The notes below the pieces were generated by a model. The model ran no database searches, was not told where the DNA came from, and worked only from the letters and a program-made list of their open reading frames with translations. 26,021 nucleotides of DNA from contig CAUDNR010004294.1 of assembly GCA_958430865.1 (NCBI GenBank), positions 1-26,021 of the forward strand. Direction: 5' to 3'. This stretch comes from Entrophospora sp. SA101 (Eukaryota; Glomeromycota; Glomeromycetes; Entrophosporales; Entrophosporaceae). Below are positions 933 through 23,388 of this stretch, in pieces; position 1 is the stretch's first letter; every line of letters begins with the position of its first letter. The position numbers and the translations under genes were made by a program.

Positions 933-1637
933 AACTGTATGTCTAATAAAAAACAATCGCATGCATTGTATAATCATTATATCAAAGTTATTTTCCATTA
1001 ACAGTTTTATTTTTATTAAAAAAGTACAAATAGATTTGTGACTAATAGTGGGAATGGATATTAATTTATAACTTTAATCCGACATTGTCACGAGCTAAAA
1101 ATGTAAGACAACTAATTTTACTTGTCCAATTGAAATAGGTTGTCTGCATATGAAAGCCGTGATGGCCTCTGTTCAGATCTTGTTGTGTCAAAGGTGAATG
1201 AACATTATCAGGCCAGTAATGTAAATAACGTGAAACATTTGGGAATTAGGCCTCAATATTCGTGTAACACGTGTTTATAAGATGATAGAAATAGAAAGTA
1301 GAAGTAGACGAAGCCTTTTATTTTATAAATGTCTTCAATGAGAGATAGGAAAGCTGGTAAAGATATGCGAATCATGATAAACAACACATCTTATTGTTTG
1401 TTATGCAAAAAATTTTGTATCATTATTTTCGTTACACTGTATTAATTTTAAACCCTTATCAATTAATCCAAATTTCAAGGCAATCAAATAAGCTATTTTT
1501 AAAAAAAAAACCCCCCATCAATAACAAAGTTAAAAAATGTAAATTGTTTGTTACACGTCATTCCATGATATTCTCATAAAAAGAAACTTTATTCATTAAA
1601 ATGCCAAGTCAAATTTTATACTTTATATTTTTATATA
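933..1637. other. Intergenic, upstream of kinase 1
   Basis: I see no gene, RNA or repeat structure. The 61-codon open stretch at 1394-1579 contains a poly-A-encoded lysine run and has no domain. The last 60 bases before the kinase ATG are AT-rich, with no confident promoter motif. Confidence 0.5.
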
Positions 1638-3193
1638 ATGTCATATGTTAAACTATTATCATTATTAACACCAGAAAGAGTAGAGGGTGTATTGAAAATT
1701 TGTAGTGAAATGTATAATAATGCAATGGCTAATTCTGATAAAGAAAGTATAAAAGATTATTTTTTTTCATTAGTCAAAAAAAACGAGGAGCTTTATGAAA
1801 ATGAAAAAGAATATTGTAAAGAAAGGATTATTTATGAGGTTGAATTAAGAAATGCAAGAAATAAAGAAGGAAAACCAAGAGAATGTAATGAGTGTAAATT
1901 GATAAAATACTCAGATAGATTCTGTGAAGGTTGTATTAGTTTACAATTACAGAATCTTTTCTGTGATTGGACATCTGGAAATGACATAATTGATAATTTT
2001 ATTCAACAATGTCAAATAAAATCATCTTTGCCAGATTATATTTTAGAATGGATACCTTTTGAGCAATTTGAAGAAGTAACAGAGTTGACAAAAGGTGGAT
2101 TTAGTTCAATTTTTACTGCTAGATGGGCAAGAGGAAGTATTGTTGATTATGATGAAGATAAAAAGGAATTTAGTTATTGTGGATTGCAAAGAGTAGTATT
2201 GAAAAATTTAAATAACTCAAGTAATCCAGAAAGAGCATTTTTTGATGAGGTTGGTTAGTTGCTTATTTAAAACAAAATAAACAATACTGTATTATATTTA
2301 ATTGATTTTATATTTATTTTCAGGCAATGAATTATTGTAAAATTAAATCAGAAATGATTGTTCAATGCTTTGGTATAACTAAATTCCCAGATAGTGGAAA
2401 TTATGCAATAATTTTAAATTATTTATCAGATGGAAATTTAAGGGATTATTTACAAAAAAATCATTCAATTTTAACATTAAAAGATAGAATTACAATCTTT
2501 AGATATTTATGTGATGCATTAGATGATATACATAAAAAAGATTTAATCCATTGTGATCTACATAGTGGTAATATATTAGTAAATGGAGGTAATTGTTATA
2601 TTACAGATTTGGGATTATGTGGGCCAGTTGATGAAAAGTCATTAAATAAAATCCATGGAATTATACCATATGTTGCACCTGAGCTACTTAGAGGAAAAAT
2701 TAATACAAAGAGCACAAAAGAAACTGATATCTATAGTGTTGGGATGTTAATGTGGGAAATATTTGCAGGACATCCACCATTTGATGATAGAGCTCACAAC
2801 CATCGTTTGATTTTTGATATATGTGCAGAAGGTTTACGACCACCCATATTACCTGAAATACCTGATGATTATGTGCAAATGATGCAGAGGTGTTGGGATG
2901 TGGATCCATCAAAAAGACCAACTAGTAGTGACCTGTTTAATTTTGCTAAAAATAAAAGTAACGAAATTTTTAAAAACAAAAGTTTGAAAAATAATAGTAG
3001 CAATAATAGTTTAATAAAAAAAATACTCAAAATTTCTAAAATTAAGGAATCGCATTCAAATGCATATCATGCAAGTAGAATCTTAGATGATGAGATTGCT
3101 AAATCTAAAAACTTAAAAGTTTATACAAGTAATGATAGTTTGTTAGATACTCTTGATTGTAGTCCTTCTCTCTTAAACATTGAAGGTGAATAA
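1638..3193 (+). CDS. RIPK/TKL-like protein kinase (kinase 1), two exons
   Basis: The 493-residue protein is encoded by exons 1638-2249 and 2324-3193, joined in phase 0. Order: an N-terminal charged region (1-80); a probable zinc-binding module CNEC-x9-CEGC (C83, C86, C96, C99); then a kinase domain of about 145-415. Visible motifs are the loop TKGGFSSI (151-158, first Gly replaced by Lys), VVLK with K189, HCDLHSGN (D282 in HRD position), DLG (D299) and APE (322-324). Both metal- and base-type Asp residues are present, so activity is plausible despite HCD for HRD, DLG for DFG and the weak glycine loop. A Ser/Asn/Lys-rich tail includes HSNAYHASRIL, related to the tail of the kinase at 8811-13519. 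Family knowledge: this HCDLHSGN type is hugely expanded in Rhizophagus. Probably cytosolic Ser/Thr signalling; substrates unknown. The Met at 1638 is the only upstream start in frame. Confidence 0.9.
2250..2323 (+). other. Intron of kinase 1 (74 nt)
   Basis: The donor is the unusual GTTGGT after GAG and the acceptor is TTTTCAG before GCA. Without splicing the frame hits TAG at 2256. Splicing joins FFDE to AMNYC in frame inside the kinase N-lobe. The kinase at 8811-13519 has an intron at the homologous place (12419-12494), after SKE and before LQNH, which supports the call. Confidence 0.85.
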
Positions 3194-8810: not shown

Positions 8811-11800
8811 ATGAACGAAGGTATTTTTTCTTATAGTTTTTTTAAAATTTCAAGTAATTTTATATCTTAATTTAATAATTTGCTTTATAATAAAATAATA
8901 TTTAGCAAAATTTTATCATGGTAAATATTATAAATTAACTTGAATAGTTTTTATTAAATCATCATCTAATTAAATAAAATCATTTTTTATTTCTTTACAA
9001 TGATCAGGGAGTAAGTATCATATTATAAATTAAACTTTACAACACAGAATAAACTTTATTAAATCATAAATTATTTTATTTTTTATTTCTTTATAAATAA
9101 TTAGTTGGTAAGTGTTATATTATAAATTAACTTTTACAACATAAATAAACTTTATTAAAACATCACCTAATTAAATATTTTTATTTGCATTTCTTTATAA
9201 TAACTAGGGAGTAAGCATTGTATTATAAATTAACTCTTACAACACAAAATGAACTTTATCAAACATTACTGATTAAATAAATTAATTTTTTATTTCATCA
9301 TAATAACCAGAGAGTAAGTATTTATATTATAATTAACTTTTACAACACAAAATAAAACATCATCTAATTAAATAAGTTTATTTTTATTTTTTTATAATAA
9401 CCAGATCGTAAGTATTATATTATTAAATTACTCTTACATCATAAACTTTATTAAAACATCATCTGATTGAATAATTTTATTTTGATTTCTTTATAATAAC
9501 CAGTTTGTAAGTACTATATTATAAATATTATAAATCAACTTTTACAACACAAAATGAACTTTTATTAAACATCATTTAATTAAATAAATTGATTTTTATT
9601 TCATTATAATAACCAGCATGTAAATATTATGTTCCAAATTATAAATTAACTTTTACAACACATACTTTATTAAAACATCATCTAATTAAATATTTTTATT
9701 TATTTATAATAACCAGATCGTAAGTATTATATTATAAATTAACTTTTACAACACAAAATAAATTTTATCTTCAACATCATCTAATTAAATAATTTTTTTT
9801 TTATTTTATAATAACCAGTTCGTAAGTATTATATTATAAATTAACTTTTACAACACAAAATCAATTTTAATAACATTACTAATTAAATATTTTTATTTTT
9901 ATTTCTTATAATAATAACCAGATTGTAAGTATTATATTATAAATTAACTTTTACAACACAAACTTTATTAAAATTTGAATAATTATTTTTACTTCTTTAT
10001 AATAACTAGATCGTAAGTATTGTATTGTAATTAATTTTTTATAACATAAAATAAACTTTATTAAAGCATAATCTAATTAAATAAATTTATTTTATTTCTT
10101 TATAATAACCAGTTGGTAAGTATCATATTGTAAATTAACTTTTAAACACAAACTTTATTAAAGTTAAATAAATTTATTTTTATTTCTTTATAATAATCAG
10201 CTGGTAAGCATTATATTATAAATTAATTTTTACAACACAAAATAAACTTTATTAAAACATCACCTAATTAAATAAAATTTTTTTTTATTTCTTTATAATA
10301 ACCAGTTGGTAAGTATTATATACAACACAAAAAAGTGTGGTGGACATTTAAATCATGTAACCAATGATATTATTGACTAACCTTGAATTTTGTCAGCTAA
10401 TAATTGTTACCTCTGAGATTGAAGAACCACTTCAGAACCACACCTATTACTCACTTTTATAGTTGGAGTTTTTAAAAAAAATTTCAAATTGTTTATTATT
10501 ATTGAAAAATGCATGTAACATTTGAATGTCCACCATGACAAATAAAGCATCATCTAATTAAATTATTTTTTTTATTTCTTTATAATAACAGGGGGTAAGT
10601 ATTATATTATACATTAACTTTTACAAGACGGAATAAATTTTATTAAAGCATCATAAATTTGTTTTTCATTTCTTTATAAAACTAGCTGGTAAGTATTATA
10701 TTATAAATTAACTTTTACAACACCAAATAAACTTTATTAAACATCATCTAATTAAACAATTTTATTTTTATTTTTTTATAATAACCAGTTAGTAAGTATT
10801 ATATTATAAATTAACTTTTACAACATGAAATAAACTTTATCTAATTAAATTTATTTTTTATTTCTTTATAAACCAGCTGGTAAGTATTATATTACAAATT
10901 AACCTTTACAACAAAAAATAAACATCATCTAATTAAAAAAATTTATTTTTTATTTCTTTATAATAAAGCATGCAAGTATTATACTTTATATAACTTTTAT
11001 AATACAAAATAAACTTCATCTAATTAAAGATTTTATTTTTTATTTTTTTTTTTTATAATTAGGGGGTAAATATTATAAATTAACTTTTATAATAAACATT
11101 ATCTGATTAATAAATATATTTTTGTTTCTTTATAATAACCAGATTGTAAGTATTATATTATAATTAACCTTTACAACACAAAATAAACTTTCATCTTATT
11201 AAATAAATTATTTTTATTTCTTTATAATCAGATAGTAAGTATTATTATACTATAAATTAACTTTTACAACAAAATAAACTTTATTAAAGCATCACCTAAT
11301 CAAATAAATTTATTTTATAATAACCAGATTGTAAGTATTATATTATTATTTCTACAACACAAAATAAACTTTTATATAACTAAATAAATTATTTTCATTT
11401 CTATATCATAACCAGGTTGTAAGTATTATATTATAAATTAACTTTCAATACAAAATAAACATCATCTAATTAAATAAATTTATTTTTTATTTCTTCATAA
11501 TAACCAGCTGGTAAGTATTATATCATAAATTAAAAAAATAAACTTTATTAAAACTTCATTCAATTAAATAAGTTTAATTTTTATTTTTTATAATAACCAG
11601 GGGGTAAAGTATTACATTATAAATTAAACTTTTAAACAAAATAAACATCTAATTAAATGAACTTGTTTTATTTTGGTTTTTATTTCTTTATAATAACCAG
11701 CTAGTAAGTATTATTATAAATTAACTTTTACAACACAAATTAAAACATCATCTAATTAATAAAATTATTATTTATTTCTTTATAATAACTAGCTGGTAAG

Positions 11801-13519
11801 CATTATATTATAAATTGACTTTTACAATAAAAAATAATTTTTATCAAAGCATCATTCAATTAAACAAATTTATTTTTTATTTCTTTATAATGACTAGCAA
11901 TTGAAGAAGGTAAAACATTATATCATAAATTTATTTTTTTATAATTTTTACTTGGAACAAATACCTATTTTTATTATGTTAAAAATAAATGCTATTTTAT
12001 TTTTAATTTTTTTATAATAGACATTACTAAAAAGTTTAAAGAAAGGAAAGAAAAATATGGAATCTGTTCTGTTTGTGCAAAATATAATACTAATTACCAG
12101 TGGTGTCAATCATGTGATTCCAAATTGTTGGCTCAAAGTTGGACTACCAGTGGTAATGAAAAATTGGATAAAATAATTAGAACTACACAGCTTGAAGCAA
12201 AAGGATTTAATAGTTGTTATTACCTTGAATGGATTCCTTATGATCAACTCAAAATTGAAAAGGCAGCAGGTGAAGGTGGTTTTGCAACAGTGTATATGGG
12301 TTGCTGGTCAAATGGTCCTAAATATGTTCAGGAGGGTCAAAGATATTATTCTACGAATGGTCGTGTAGCATTAAAAAAGTTTAAAAACTCTCAAAATCCT
12401 GAAGAGTTGTCAAAGGAGGTAAATAATTTGATATAATTTAATTGATTTTTAAATAATATATTAATATATTAAATTTTTATTAATTTTGTAAAAGCTTCAA
12501 AATCATATTAAATTTATGGGACCTTATCATAAGGGCATTGTTGACATTTATGGTCTTTCACAAGATCCCAACACAAAAGAATATGTTTTAGTAATGAGAT
12601 ACACAGACAGTGGAAGTTTTAAAGATTATATAAAATCAAAATCAAATTATACAGGATGGAGCAACAGAATTACAATCCTACATAGTATTATCTTAGGTTT
12701 AAGCACCTTTCATAAAGAAGGACTTATGCATTGTGATCTTCACAGTGGTAATATTTTATATTTTCAATATTTAGAACAGCAGGTAATGATTGCAGATTTA
12801 GGGTTATCAAGCCCAGCTGATCAAGTAAAATCAAATAAAGATGATAAATTTGGAGTTCTGCCATATGTTGCACCAGAGGTTTTAAATAATGGACCTTATA
12901 CACAAAAATCTGACATCTATAGCTTTGGGATTTTAATGTCAGAAACATCAACATATCAGCAACCATTCAAAGATCAACCACATGATCAAGATCTTGCTCT
13001 CAGGATCTGTGGTGGCTTAAGGCCTAGTTTTTCAGATAATACTCCAGAATGTTATATTAAGTTAGCATACAAATGCACAGATGCTGATCCTGAAAAAAGA
13101 CCAACAGCAGATGAAATTTTAAAAATTATTACTTTTTGGAAAGATGCAATTGAATCTAATATTTCTAGTTATTCTGAAGAACAGCTTGATGAATTAGAAG
13201 AAGTAAAAAAAATATTTAAGAAAACAGGTAAAAAACCCTTCAATCCTTCAACAATTATGGCAATTGTTCATCCAAATGCTGTTTATACAAGTAGATTATT
13301 GAATTTTACAAATCTTCCTCAACCTGTAAACTCCAATAAAGTTACAATTATTAGTAATAACAATGGTAATTATCTAATTTATTGTTATATATTTATTTAA
13401 TCTTAATTATTTATTATTAATGATATTTTAAACTATAAACAATTATAGAATCTAAACAAATTGAATTAACTATGTCAGATTCTAAACAAATTGAATTAAC
13501 TATACCAAATAATTTATGA
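8811..13519 (+). CDS. RIPK/TKL-like kinase (kinase 2) with 28 consecutive 3-nt exons
   Basis: Predicted 486-residue kinase with 34 exons. Exon 1 (8811-8820) is ATGAACGAAG in an A-rich context; exon 2 is 8906-8920. Exons 3-30 are 3 nt each, starting at 9008, 9105, 9208, 9311, 9405, 9504, 9617, 9717, 9819, 9922, 10010, 10113, 10201, 10306, 10592, 10686, 10789, 10877, 10969, 11063, 11143, 11232, 11328, 11416, 11508, 11601, 11701, 11793. Exon 31 is 11898-11909; large exons are 12021-12418 and 12495-13365; the last is 13449-13519. Residues 1-9 read MNEAKFYHG, 28-41 WDYNCSGATAIEED, then ITKKFKERKEKYG. A CSVC-x9-CQSC module (C56, C59, C69, C72) precedes the kinase domain: GEGGFATV (124-131), VALK (K159), HCDLHSGN (D254), DLG (D274), APE (299-301). 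The tail has HPNAVYTSRLLNF (432-444). The large exons are near certain; the tiny-exon part is inferred from splice sites and frame and lacks transcript proof. Confidence 0.8.
8921..11897 (+). repeat. Tandem array of 29 related introns separated by single codons
   Basis: The unit is about 90-105 nt. It begins with a near-perfect donor (GTAAGTATTATATTATAAAT), has AACTTTTACAACACAAAATA in the middle and a possible branch site in CATCTAATTAAAT, and ends with a T-rich tract and TTTCTTTATAATAACCAG. Units are joined through exactly 3 variable bases in 28 of 28 junctions. Intron lengths are 77-110 nt; intron 16 is 283 nt because it contains a MITE. Donors are GTAAGT in most units, with GTAAAT, GTAAGC, GTAAAG variants and one GC donor (10972). 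Acceptors are CAG or TAG, with one AAG (10966-10968). All 29 interrupt the reading frame in phase 1. The flanks are conserved while the 3-nt spacers differ, which plain minisatellite duplication would not produce. Confidence 0.9.
10335..10537. mobile_element. hAT-like MITE inside intron 16 of kinase 2
   Basis: This 203-bp insert interrupts one array unit. Terminal inverted repeats are GTGTGGTGGACATTTAAAT at the left and the complement of CATGGTGGACATTCAAAT at the right, both followed by an ATGTAAC-like word. The flanking 8-mers ACAAAAAA (10327-10334) and ACAAATAA (10538-10545) match at 7 of 8 positions, the size of a hAT duplication. Removing the insert restores the unit text cacaaaataaag. 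It leaves the donor (10309) and acceptor (10591) intact. There is no coding capacity. The TIR resembles those at 13793 and 25944 (TGGTGGACATTT, TAGTGGACATTT). Confidence 0.8.
12419..12494 (+). other. Intron 32 of kinase 2 (76 nt)
   Basis: Donor GTAAAT after GAG, acceptor GTAAAAG before CTT, phase 0. Splicing joins SKE to LQNHIKFMGP across the kinase N-lobe, at the same place as the kinase 1 intron. Confidence 0.88.
13366..13448 (+). other. Intron 33 of kinase 2 (83 nt)
   Basis: Donor GTAATT after AACAATG, acceptor AATTATAG, phase 1. Unspliced, the frame would end at 13400 with an unrelated hydrophobic tail (NYLIYCYIFI). Spliced, it gains ESKQIELT and ends at TGA 13517-13519. Confidence 0.7.
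13451..13502 (+). repeat. Duplicated SKQIELT segment in the last kinase 2 exon
   Basis: A 22-nt sequence beginning tctaaacaaattgaattaac is repeated exactly 30 nt downstream (13451-13472 and 13481-13502). It encodes SKQIELTM then SKQIELTI, so the period is ten residues in frame. The frame-preserving repeat supports the exon being coding. Confidence 0.75.
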
Positions 13520-17017: not shown

Positions 17018-17807
17018 GGTCTGGGACACTTTACCAACACCCACTTTACCAACAAGACACTTTACCAACAGGACACTTTACTGACAGGACACTTTACTGA
17101 CAGGACACTTTACCAACAATCAAAGTAAAGTCAAACTTGACATAGAAATGGTCTTGTGAGGAACACCACAACCCCCACAGAAACCACAAGATTGTAATCG
17201 TGAAATATGGATTCAAACAGTATTAAATAACATTAGATCAACTATAAAGTTTCTTCAGGACATTGCCCATAATATTTCATTTTAAAATTTTTTTTTAAAA
17301 AATTTTTTTTGGTGTATAATATTAATTAATGTGTCACAATAAAAGTTTTTTGTAAATGATTGATAAATAAATTTAATAAAAAAATAACATGAATATGCAA
17401 TTTTTATCAATTTCATCAGACAAAAAAAATATATTACACATGTATCTGTATTGTATTTTTATGAACTTGTTTTTGATGCAAAGTAAGGATAATAAGTGAT
17501 GTTATTAGTTATGACTTATGGCTGAGTTTTTCACTGCACAACAAACCAATTTTTAGCTAGTTATCCAGGTCTTCACACAGTCCTTGGCAAATTGTTGACA
17601 CAATACTTGCTGGTAAAGTGTCCTGTTGGTAAAGTGTCTTGTCAGTAAATTGTCCTGTTGGTAAAGTGTCCTGTTGGTAAAGTGCCCTGTTGGTAAAGTG
17701 CCCTGTTGGTAAAGTGTCCTGTTGGTAAAGTGTCCTGTTGGCAAAGTGTGTTGTCAGTAAAGTGGGTGTTGGTAAAGTGTCCTGTGGTAAAGTGGGTGTC
17801 CAGGTCC
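17018..17807. mobile_element. Foldback element with 16-bp tandem-repeat arms
   Basis: The left arm (17018-17118) is about six copies of a 16-bp unit, GACACTTTACCAACAG or GACACTTTACTGACAG. The right arm (about 17608-17807) is about a dozen copies of the complement (CTGTTGGTAAAGTGTC). The outermost bases also match as inverted repeats: GGTCTGGGACAC at the left and GGACCTGGACAC read from the right. The middle, 17119-17607, has no convincing gene. No target duplication was found. A 63-codon minus-strand frame at 17553-17744 is only the repeat translated. The element separates the plus-strand pseudogene from a minus-strand one whose text stops exactly at its right edge. Confidence 0.75.
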
Positions 17808-21291: not shown

Positions 21292-23388
21292 ATGAAGAAA
21301 TCTAGTTTCTTCAAAATAGTATCATTGTTGTGCTCATTACTAGTCATAATACCTATATTATTAGTACCGGCCGAAGAAGCAACAACAGACGTTGGTACAG
21401 GTATTTATCGTTTTTTTTTTTTAAAAATAATTAAATAAAGTGTATTTTTTCGTGTTGAATTATTTATATATATTATTTTTTTTTTCAAATTTAAATCATT
21501 AGTTATTGGAATTGATTTGGGAACAACATATTCTTGCGTTGGTGTTCACTTAAACGGAAGAGTTGAAATATTGGCCAATGACCAAGGAAATCGTATTACA
21601 CCTTCTTATGTAGCCTTTACTGACGACGAACGTTTAGTTGGTGATGCAGCTAAAAATCAAGCTGCAAATAATCCTCAAAACACCATATTTGATGTAAAAC
21701 GTTTAATAGGAAGAAGATTTTCTGATAAAGATGTTCAGAATGATCTCAAACATTTCCCATTCAAAGTCGTAGATAATGACGATAAACCTGCTATTTCTGT
21801 TAAAGTTAAAGGCGAAGAAAAACTTTTTACACCTGAAGAAATTTCGGCTATGATATTAGTTAAAATGAAAGAAATTGCTGAATCGTTTTTGGGTAAAAAA
21901 GTCACTCATGCCGTTGTCACAGTTCCAGCTTATTTCAATGATGCTCAACGTCAGGCAACAAAAGATGCTGGCGTTATAGCTGGACTTAATGTTATGCGTA
22001 TTGTAAATGAACCAACAGCTGCTGCAATAGCGTATGGACTTGATAGATCAAAAGGTGAACGTCAAATTCTTGTTTACGATCTTGGTGGTGGCACTTTTGA
22101 TGTCTCATTATTGTCAATTGATGATGGTGTATTTGAAGTGTTGGCTACTGCTGGCGATACTCATTTGGGTGGTGAAGATTTTGATAATAGGGTTATTGAT
22201 TATTTTGCCAAATTATATAAAAAGAAACATAAGGTTGATGTCACAAAAGATTTGAAAGCAATGGGTAAATTAAAGCGTGAAGTTGAAAAAGCCAAACGTA
22301 CATTATCATCTCAAATGTCAACTCGTATTGAGATCGAATCTTTCTTCGATGGCAAGGATTTCTCTGAAACATTGACCCGTGCGAAATTTGAAGAATTGAA
22401 TAATGATCTTTTCCGTAAAACAATAAAGCCTGTTGAACAAGTAATGAAAGATGCAAAAATTGAAAAGTCAGCTGTTCATGATATAGTTTTGGTTGGGGGT
22501 TCCACACGTATTCCAAAAGTTCAACAACTCCTTGAGGAATTCTTTGATGGTAAAAAGGCCTCAAAAAATATCAATCCTGATGAAGCTGTTGCTTATGGTG
22601 CAGCTGTCCAAGGCGGTATTCTTTCTGGTGCTGAAAATGTTGAAGATCTCTTGTTAGTAGATGTTTGCCCATTGACTCTTGGGATTGAAACAACTGGTGG
22701 AGTTATGACAAAATTGATTCCTCGTAATACTGTCATTCCAACCAAAAAATCACAAATCTTCTCAACTGCAGTTGATAATCAACCAGTTGTATTGATTCAA
22801 GTGTTTGAAGGTGAACGTTCATTGACCAAGGATAATAACTTGCTTGGCAAATTTGAATTAACAGGAATTCCGCCAGCACCACGTGGTGTACCTCAAATTG
22901 AAGTCACTTTCGAAATTGATGCCAATGGTATCATGAAAGTTTCTGCGGCCGACAAAGGTACAGGAAAATCAGAATCTATTACAATTACAAATGATAAAGG
23001 ACGTCTTTCAAAAGAAGATATCGAAAGAATGGTCGAAGAAGCTGAACAATTTGCTGAAGAAGATCAAATACAAAAAGAAAGAATTGAATTAAGAAATAAA
23101 CTTGAAAATTATGTTTATACAACTAAAAGTCAATTAGATGATAATGGTGAACTCGGAAAGAAAATCAGTGAAGAAGATAAGAAAACAATCAAAGATGCGA
23201 TTAAGAAAACTATTGATTGGTTTGATGAATTTTCAAGTTCAGCCACTAAAGAAGATTTCGAAGAAAAAATAGAAGAAATAGAAGCTATTGTAAATCCAAT
23301 TACAAGTAAATTATATTCGTCAGATCCATCAGATGAAAAATCAACAACTGACGAGGATGATGAATTGCCAACACACGGAGAATTATAA
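21292..23388 (+). CDS. KAR2: ER chaperone BiP (Hsp70), ends in HGEL
   Basis: The 664-residue Hsp70 is encoded by exons 21292-21400 and 21503-23388. It folds imported proteins and helps pull them through the ER translocon, using ATP. Residues 1 to about 27 are a signal peptide ([10 protein letters not shown] then [15 protein letters not shown]). The ATPase domain follows with [14 protein letters not shown] (38-51), [17 protein letters not shown] (about 177-193), [12 protein letters not shown] (229-240) and [14 protein letters not shown]. The linker-like [14 protein letters not shown] opens the substrate-binding domain, and an acidic C-terminal lid ends THGEL. The length fits the family and all hallmark motifs are intact. 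The C-terminal tetrapeptide is HGEL rather than HDEL or KDEL. Its codon use is less AT-extreme than neighbouring kinase and relic genes, as expected for a highly expressed gene. Confidence 0.97.
21401..21502 (+). other. Intron of BiP (102 nt)
   Basis: Donor GTATTT after GGTACAG, acceptor CATTAG before TTATTGG, phase 1. It separates the signal-peptide exon from the Hsp70 body and joins TTDVGT to VIGIDLG. Confidence 0.9.

Follow-up and report, generated by a model that had tools for sequence, protein, structure and literature searches.

Evidence for probable serially spliced one-codon exons upstream of a predicted protein kinase domain in Entrophospora sp. SA101

An array of probable one-codon exons

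The stretch of Entrophospora sp. SA101 DNA analyzed here (GenBank assembly GCA_958430865.1, contig CAUDNR010004294.1, positions 1 to 26,021 of the forward strand; 26,021 nucleotides (nt), hereafter the window) carries, ahead of a predicted protein kinase domain, a tandem array of intron-like units in which 28 spacers, each exactly 3 nt long and of the form AG-NNN-GT, lie between positions 9008 and 11795 of the plus strand. These 28 triplets are very probably genuine one-codon exons that are spliced serially and translated in phase 1. Arrays of the same layout recur in paralogues of the kinase, the splice sites beside the triplets are kept almost without exception, the spacer stays at 3 nt, and stop codons are scarce exclusively between neighboring triplets read in phase 1. 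A first-pass annotation of this DNA had proposed a run of single-codon exons, a proposal that is now strongly supported by evolutionary evidence (the shortage of stops, the phase, and the splice sites) rather than by RNA.

According to this reading, about 31 short introns would be removed from a pre-mRNA extending from position 8811 onward, and the triplets, once joined, would be translated in phase 1 to give the protein kinase a variable N-terminal segment. The units may be removed by intron definition, either sequentially or in alternating rounds, since an AG and the next donor lie 3 nt apart and, therefore, both introns flanking a triplet could hardly be recognized at once. Moreover, as every unit amounts to one codon, the duplication, loss, or skipping of units would leave the frame intact, which would explain the differences in copy number between paralogues and the persistence of some dead units.

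The predicted kinase gene

The elements listed in the first-pass annotation were all found: the 28 triplets of 3 nt, followed by 27 GT donors and one GC donor (after position 10971), the ATG-containing exon 1 (8811 to 8820, ATGAACGAAG, ending in phase 1), the 15-nt exon 2 (8906 to 8920, CAAAATTTTATCATG), the 12-nt exon downstream of the array (11898 to 11909, CAATTGAAGAAG), and the start of the kinase exon at 12021. Joining these predicted exons yields, as had been stated, 41 sense codons without a stop that run into the kinase frame, and all 31 predicted introns upstream of the kinase exon are indeed in phase 1. The implied introns measure 77–111 nt in 30 of the 31 cases, and the remaining one is lengthened to 283 nt by an insert (10338 to 10535) that has inverted ends of 16 nt and is presumably similar to a miniature inverted-repeat transposable element. 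The first kinase exon (12021 to 12418), entered in phase 1, encodes a CxxC module and the N-lobe, the second (12495 to 13365) encodes the catalytic part, and the last exon (13449 to 13519) ends with a TGA stop, all on the plus strand. The joined frame, together with two further exons, would encode a protein of 486 amino acids containing a protein kinase domain, and the predicted product matches the Pfam family PF07714 (PK_Tyr_Ser-Thr) with 136.7 bits against a gathering threshold of 23.1 (E-value 1.1e-39). Within the array, no minus-strand open reading frame of at least 80 amino acids was listed.

A family of arrays with a constant spacer

The first-pass annotation knew of one array only, and the window has since turned out not to be a one-off, as arrays of this kind are present in many genes. 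In the genome (101.3 Mb in 2123 contigs), the junction AACCAG-NNN-GTAAGTATTATATTATAAATT was matched 410 times with at most three mismatches, and its reversed control not once. When the flanks had to match exactly and the spacer could take any length of 0–30 nt, 130 matches were obtained, and the spacer was 3 nt in all 100 of those listed. Mismatch-tolerant searches covered spacer lengths of 2, 3, 4, and 6 nt; those for 2, 4, and 6 nt returned 34, 5, and 85 matches, respectively, which on inspection by eye are 3-nt junctions in a shifted register, except for one true 2-nt case (contig C679) and one junction without AG (window position 385).

The stretches read comprised 20 at first and then 13, together with eight for sister kinases and six as a held-out set. 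The start of a kinase exon lies directly 3' of the array in 24 of the loci read (including the window and its near-copy on contig C1833), and in the paralogues this exon is entered in phase 1, as in the window. A search with the kinase, in which 150 of 1064 candidates were scored, separated about 50 matches of at least 80% identity, nearly all of which start at query residues 11–20, where an array-type intron would end, from about 100 matches of 50–68% identity, most of which have an uninterrupted frame. Single units of the array type also occur in other contexts (loci L010, L011, and L019).

Conservation of the splice sites beside the triplets

Units were cut at a mid-intron motif, so that the splice sites played no part in their choice, which gave 296 segments from 24 loci. 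Of these, 287 of 289 have the acceptor AG, 287 of 290 the donor G, and 289 of 290 a T or C after it. Conservation of AG and GT/GC is thus about 99%, next to a triplet that is near-random, with an entropy of 1.90, 1.47, and 1.89 bits at its three positions. Gaps make up about 2% of the junction columns, no more than in the anchor columns at which the segments were cut, and most columns of the intron body are 85–99% like the consensus. Two forms of the 3' end exist, CTTTATAATAACCAG and a shorter CATAG, and the 3-nt distance is kept in both.

It could be argued that the arrays are a satellite within decaying kinase copies and that their splice-like motifs persist by descent and have no function, given that the copies are many and that some loci have been truncated or are fused with other DNA. 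Nevertheless, AG and GT are among the best-kept positions and have the fewest gaps, stops between neighbors are rare, and the kinase frame of the window is intact, which makes a mere satellite hardly credible.

Several arrays show further variation. Foreign inserts occur in single intron units of L012, L030, L031, and L036 and leave the triplets unaffected. The broken donors of L009, L018, and L036 (three in all) share the same change, GTAAGT to ATAAGT. In L012, L014, L017, L018, L021, L022, and L034, the array is followed on its 3' side by AATTGAAG and immediately by GTAAA, with AG adjoining GT, at the position that the 12-nt exon occupies in the window; this site could be a recursive splice point of zero length or simply intron.

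Stop codons between neighboring triplets

A codon in phase 1 consists of the last base of a triplet plus two bases from the start of the following one, which lies about 95 base pairs (bp) away, and the stops among such codons were compared with shuffles within arrays. The near-identical loci L024, L028, and L029 and the loci with one or two triplets (L010, L011, L019, L020, L025, L026, and L027) were excluded from the counts. In a first pool of 24 arrays (363 triplets), one phase-1 stop was found in 329 junctions against 15.2 expected, in comparison with 37 stops against 40.5 expected in phase 2 and six TGA triplets in phase 0. A held-out set of six arrays, too small on its own, contained no phase-1 stop in 33 junctions (0.9 expected). 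For all 30 arrays, neighboring triplets (lag +1) form one stop in 362 junctions against 16.2 expected, a number as low as this being reached in none of 10,000 shuffles. No depletion is seen in phase 2 (41 stops against 45.0 expected), and phase 0 again includes six TGA triplets. The shortage persists when the last six triplets of the arrays ending in CAT CTG are left out (one stop in 274 against 15.1 expected) and when five close relatives are removed as well (one in 238 against 11.9). In the count of 30 arrays, dead units and some gaps were treated as breaks, one of which, in L036, hid a usable AGT unit; with seven dead units skipped and the missed units added, lag +1 gives three stops in 380 junctions against 17.6 expected, and again none of 10,000 shuffles is as low.

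The same 30 arrays provide controls by distance. Read backwards, stops are somewhat over expectation, with 24 (16.1 expected) at lag −1, 20 (14.7) at lag −2, and 19 (13.3) at lag −3; read forwards, there is no clear depletion at lag +3 (14, with 13.3 expected), lag +4 (12, with 12.0), or lag +5 (9, with 10.6). The strong shortage is confined to lag +1 in phase 1 and, therefore, selection acts on triplets that are joined serially, each to its next neighbor, and read in phase 1. This shortage is the strongest evidence for one-codon exons.

These counts bear directly on the proposal that the whole array, a series of repeated intron copies, forms a single long intron, with exon 1 or exon 2 spliced straight to the kinase exon and no triplets in the mRNA. 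The frame would also be kept if everything were skipped, and the codon make-up of the triplets differs from that of the kinase. Still, a long intron offers no reason for a shortage of stops confined to near neighbors in phase 1, for a genome-wide spacer of 3 nt, or for AG and GT kept at 99% next to a near-random triplet, and it is considered quite improbable.

Observations that weigh against strict serial splicing

Several observations weigh against the reading of the triplets as one-codon exons that are all spliced in series. At least seven dead units, with a broken donor or acceptor, are present in the arrays read. Stops at lag +2 are mildly low, with nine against 14.6 expected (379 of 10,000 shuffles as low), and remain so when dead units are skipped, with ten against 16.5 (208 of 10,000 as low); some skipping of units could account for this mild shortage. 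The single stop in the count of 30 arrays, AGT|GAT in L031, comes from a unit with the donor GTAAGA, and passing over the dead unit in L014a or in L036 would yield a T|AG stop (no kinase exon was seen 3' of the array in L014a). Beyond stops, codon usage shows no dependence on order (z 0.31; 23 blocks, short arrays left out). The joined codons are, moreover, unlike those of the kinase, with 6.4% against 1.4% Trp, 7.6% against 2.4% Arg, and 33% against 10% G at the third position. Finally, L015 contains four phase-1 stops in 46 junctions; it was excluded from the pool as a separate context, a decision taken after its stops had been seen, and pooling it with the rest gives seven stops in 426 junctions against 23.4 expected, which is below all 10,000 shuffles.

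L015 (C262:1-9999) is a minus-strand array in a different gene context, with 47 triplets among which AGA and TGT are frequent. It has no stop in phase 0 (0 of 47) and some in phases 1 and 2. An open frame on its upstream side would likewise end in phase 0, the host gene being uncertain.

Part of this evidence is what would be expected if the triplets were alternative exons, changing subsets of which are chosen to give many N-termini per gene, a possibility compatible with one-codon exons as such. Any subset keeps the frame, lag +2 is low, and dead units have to be bypassed. On the other hand, lags +3 to +5 lack a clear depletion, so that skipping of two or more units is not under selection, and a stop would arise if the dead unit in L014a or in L036 were skipped. 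Changing subsets are, thus, regarded as unlikely, albeit the least so of the alternatives considered.

The start exon, the N-terminal peptide, and the sister kinases

The ATG exon has a length of 1 modulo 3 in 22 of the 22 loci where it was found (10 nt in 20, and 7 or 13 nt in the others), and exon 2 measures 15 nt in all 17 loci in which its pattern was found, five loci having no match to the pattern. In the open frame of the kinase exon, the first in-frame Met lies within the kinase domain and none precedes it; therefore, an intact protein needs an upstream start. The 12-nt exon of the window has a shorter counterpart, with no AG ahead of it, in several paralogues, and L033 possibly has a last micro-exon of 9 nt in its place (as judged by eye). 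Many array genes would encode MNEAKFYKG, then the triplets, and then GTSDNTKGFKERKEEYG, with T, S, and part of D coming from the last triplets, CAT and CTG.

The first-pass annotation had looked to an uninterrupted paralogue with the same N-terminal residues. Eight uninterrupted sister kinases were read, and five of them have S-T-D at about the position of the array end (L048 starts with MENILNENKHHNNTSTDKNDEYSKRRDEEYG); this short match bears the expectation out weakly, and for the variable part no uninterrupted counterpart was found. The first 100 joined residues gave 55 candidates and no match among 5.8 billion proteins, a result of little weight as the collection apparently lacks this fungal group. 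The joined peptide is under selection to remain open, but its composition is odd, and composition and codon analysis gave no sign of ordinary conserved sequence in it; as a guess, it is a variable and probably unstructured N-terminus.

Divergence and reshuffling of the arrays

Triplets differ readily between otherwise similar units. Once the flanks differ by 1% or more, pairs of units show about 0.5–0.65 differences at each triplet site, whereas the seven pairs with flanks closer than 1% show 0.29; among 102 pairs with flanks 1–3% apart, the triplets differ in 86%. Between the collinear arrays L021 and L035, the introns are 6.7% and the triplets 33% different, and in 26 reciprocal collinear unit pairs, the values are 5.1% and 50%. 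Since unit-by-unit orthology between arrays is uncertain, with these 26 pairs as the only reciprocal collinear ones, the ratios of the rates are rough. The ordinary kinase intron is 0–19% different (mean about 10%; 21 pairs of seven of these genes), which is in the same range as the divergence of the array introns. Within that uncertainty of orthology, the triplets appear to diverge several-fold faster than the introns, a difference that serial splicing of one-codon exons does not account for.

Arrays and kinases have also changed partners. Contig C1833 carries the array of the window at 99.4% identity and without a difference in the 84 triplet bases, yet the kinase exon there is 8.7% different over 369 nt. 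Conversely, L017 and L038 have a kinase exon identical over 372 nt, an ordinary kinase intron with differences at 0 of 81 positions, and arrays that differ by 4.5% in their introns and 22% in their triplets. From these comparisons, it is concluded that arrays and kinases assort apart. Moreover, the number of triplets varies widely between arrays.

The resemblance of the introns to one another, together with triplets that mostly differ even where flanks diverge by 1–3% and single units found elsewhere, is also what would be left if a mobile, introner-like intron had inserted itself at every codon of an ordinary, uninterrupted exon, of which the triplets would be the remains. This proposal concerns the origin of the arrays and is compatible with one-codon exons, but it provides no reason for an insertion at each 3 nt and always in the same phase. 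The number of triplets differs widely among arrays, the eight uninterrupted sister kinases have a shorter and different N-terminus, and a genome search with one joined peptide, the query including a fused foreign exon, gave no uninterrupted copy, so such an invasion is held to be improbable. An origin from 3-bp target-site duplications was set aside, since neighboring triplets are mostly unlike.

The observations on one-codon exons can be extended to a wider picture of a new gene architecture built from an intron-plus-codon repeat unit, for and against which the odds seem evenly poised. In it, up to about 50 kinase paralogues would have their own serially spliced stacks with every intact unit retained, codons would change several times faster than introns and give each kinase its own N-terminal code, and arrays and kinase domains would be reshuffled.

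Triplet positions and other features

The triplets of the window, all on the plus strand, are GGA (9008 to 9010), TTG (9105 to 9107), GGA (9208 to 9210), AGA (9311 to 9313), ATC (9405 to 9407), TTT (9504 to 9506), CAT (9617 to 9619), ATC (9717 to 9719), TTC (9819 to 9821), ATT (9922 to 9924), ATC (10010 to 10012), TTG (10113 to 10115), CTG (10201 to 10203), and TTG (10306 to 10308), followed, beyond the unit with the insert, by GGG (10592 to 10594), CTG (10686 to 10688), TTA (10789 to 10791), CTG (10877 to 10879), CAT (10969 to 10971, next to the GC donor), GGG (11063 to 11065), ATT (11143 to 11145), ATA (11232 to 11234), ATT (11328 to 11330), GTT (11416 to 11418), CTG (11508 to 11510), GGG (11601 to 11603, with the donor GTAAAG), CTA (11701 to 11703), and CTG (11793 to 11795).

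Near the start of the contig, positions 378 to 480 hold the remnant of a second array, in which one junction has GG for AG (AACCGGGGGTAAGT) and one reads AG-ATT-GT; no ATG exon or kinase exon was seen in the stretch read from 1 to 1700. A second kinase gene lies at 1569 to 3193, with two open frames (GGFSSIFTARW and HCDLHSGNIL) that are matched by tblastn with the window kinase, and a long open frame at 21439 to 23388 is presumably Hsp70-like. Arrays of a 16-bp repeat (GACACTTTACCAACAA) at 17025 to 17119 and 17611 to 17794, in opposite orientation and about 490 bp apart, could be the ends of a mobile element.

Two related loci have unusual surroundings. In L030 (C939:12800-17200), an array lies 3' of the C-terminal part of another kinase and is followed by an Asn-rich open frame, apparently in phase 1 on both sides, as judged by eye. 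In L035/L042 (C2120:8866-9180), a gene fragment with a TGA, which is taken to be epsin-like, is joined to the 5' side of the array, and a relative is present at C1963 (L043 and L044). The idea of an array within an epsin-like gene was dropped, as the C1963 relative continues past the L035 break and the L035 copy has the TGA; the junction is attributed, by this comparison, to rearrangement.

Comparison with known systems

Searches among open-licence papers listed no title or abstract opening in which an array of one-codon exons is named, and PMC8786786 and PMC11333574 deal with other genes in what they describe. The closest known kind is the micro-exon genes (MEGs) of schistosomes and the bicycle genes of aphids. 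To our knowledge, the introns of schistosome MEGs are not tandem copies of one intron, and the exons of aphid bicycle genes are longer than one codon. In the MEGs, too, numerous short exons, with lengths that are mostly divisible by three, alternate with longer introns, and the proteins are varied; MEG exons are given as 3–81 bp in the abstract of the source, with 6 bp as the shortest and 15 bp for most in its body text, and MEG introns as 100 to nearly 5000 bp (PMC10526429). In contrast to the predicted kinase described here, MEG products are reported there as secreted, and their exons are longer (PMC10526429). The bicycle and megacycle genes are described with about 17 exons on average, nearly all internal exons being in one phase, and one gene of this group with more than 100 micro-exons; their proteins, unlike a kinase, are putative secreted effectors (PMC9168663). 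The window shares with both systems many predicted internal micro-exons in one phase (28, all in phase 1) and departs from exons of mostly several codons, as 28 of 28 are 3 nt long.

Exons of 1–3 nt can be spliced, as reported for Drosophila homothorax, with a micro-exon of 3 bp (PMC7392893), and for the plant genes APC11 and VPS55, with micro-exons of 1 nt (PMC8831610), but these are isolated, whereas here they would form an array. Fungal introner-like elements are the nearest known counterpart of the intron family and resemble it as sets of near-identical introns in one genome, to which the 410 junction matches correspond. They probably differ from it in that their copies sit in unrelated genes; here, single units lie in other contexts at L010, L011, and L019. 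In the account of one species, tandem duplication within a gene made up less than 1% of single intron gains (PMC4457414). Recursive splicing (PMC6224609) and stwintrons (PMC5639578), as described there, also involve the stepwise removal of adjoining intron units; two 3-nt exons are mentioned in duplicated lipase genes in the stwintron paper. Unlike in those systems, with their zero-length exons or nested introns, a 3-nt spacer parts the units here and each step would leave one codon.

Implications

The smallest micro-exons are reported to be missed frequently (PMC8831610), and a long-read mapping study in Rhizophagus irregularis used an intron limit of 3000 nt (PMC10234402). If the triplets cannot be placed, a read of the gene described here needs a gap of about 3.1 kb (from 8920 to 12021), which is over that limit. 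The lag test, in which stops between units are counted by distance, can be used without RNA on other suspected arrays of micro-exons. If the reading of the triplets as one-codon exons holds true in transcripts, the annotated N-termini of this kinase family would probably be wrong, and spliceosomes would handle about 30 consecutive one-codon exons per message, far under the size usually thought to be recognizable. In turn, the intron-plus-codon unit would represent a frame-safe means of lengthening and varying a protein.

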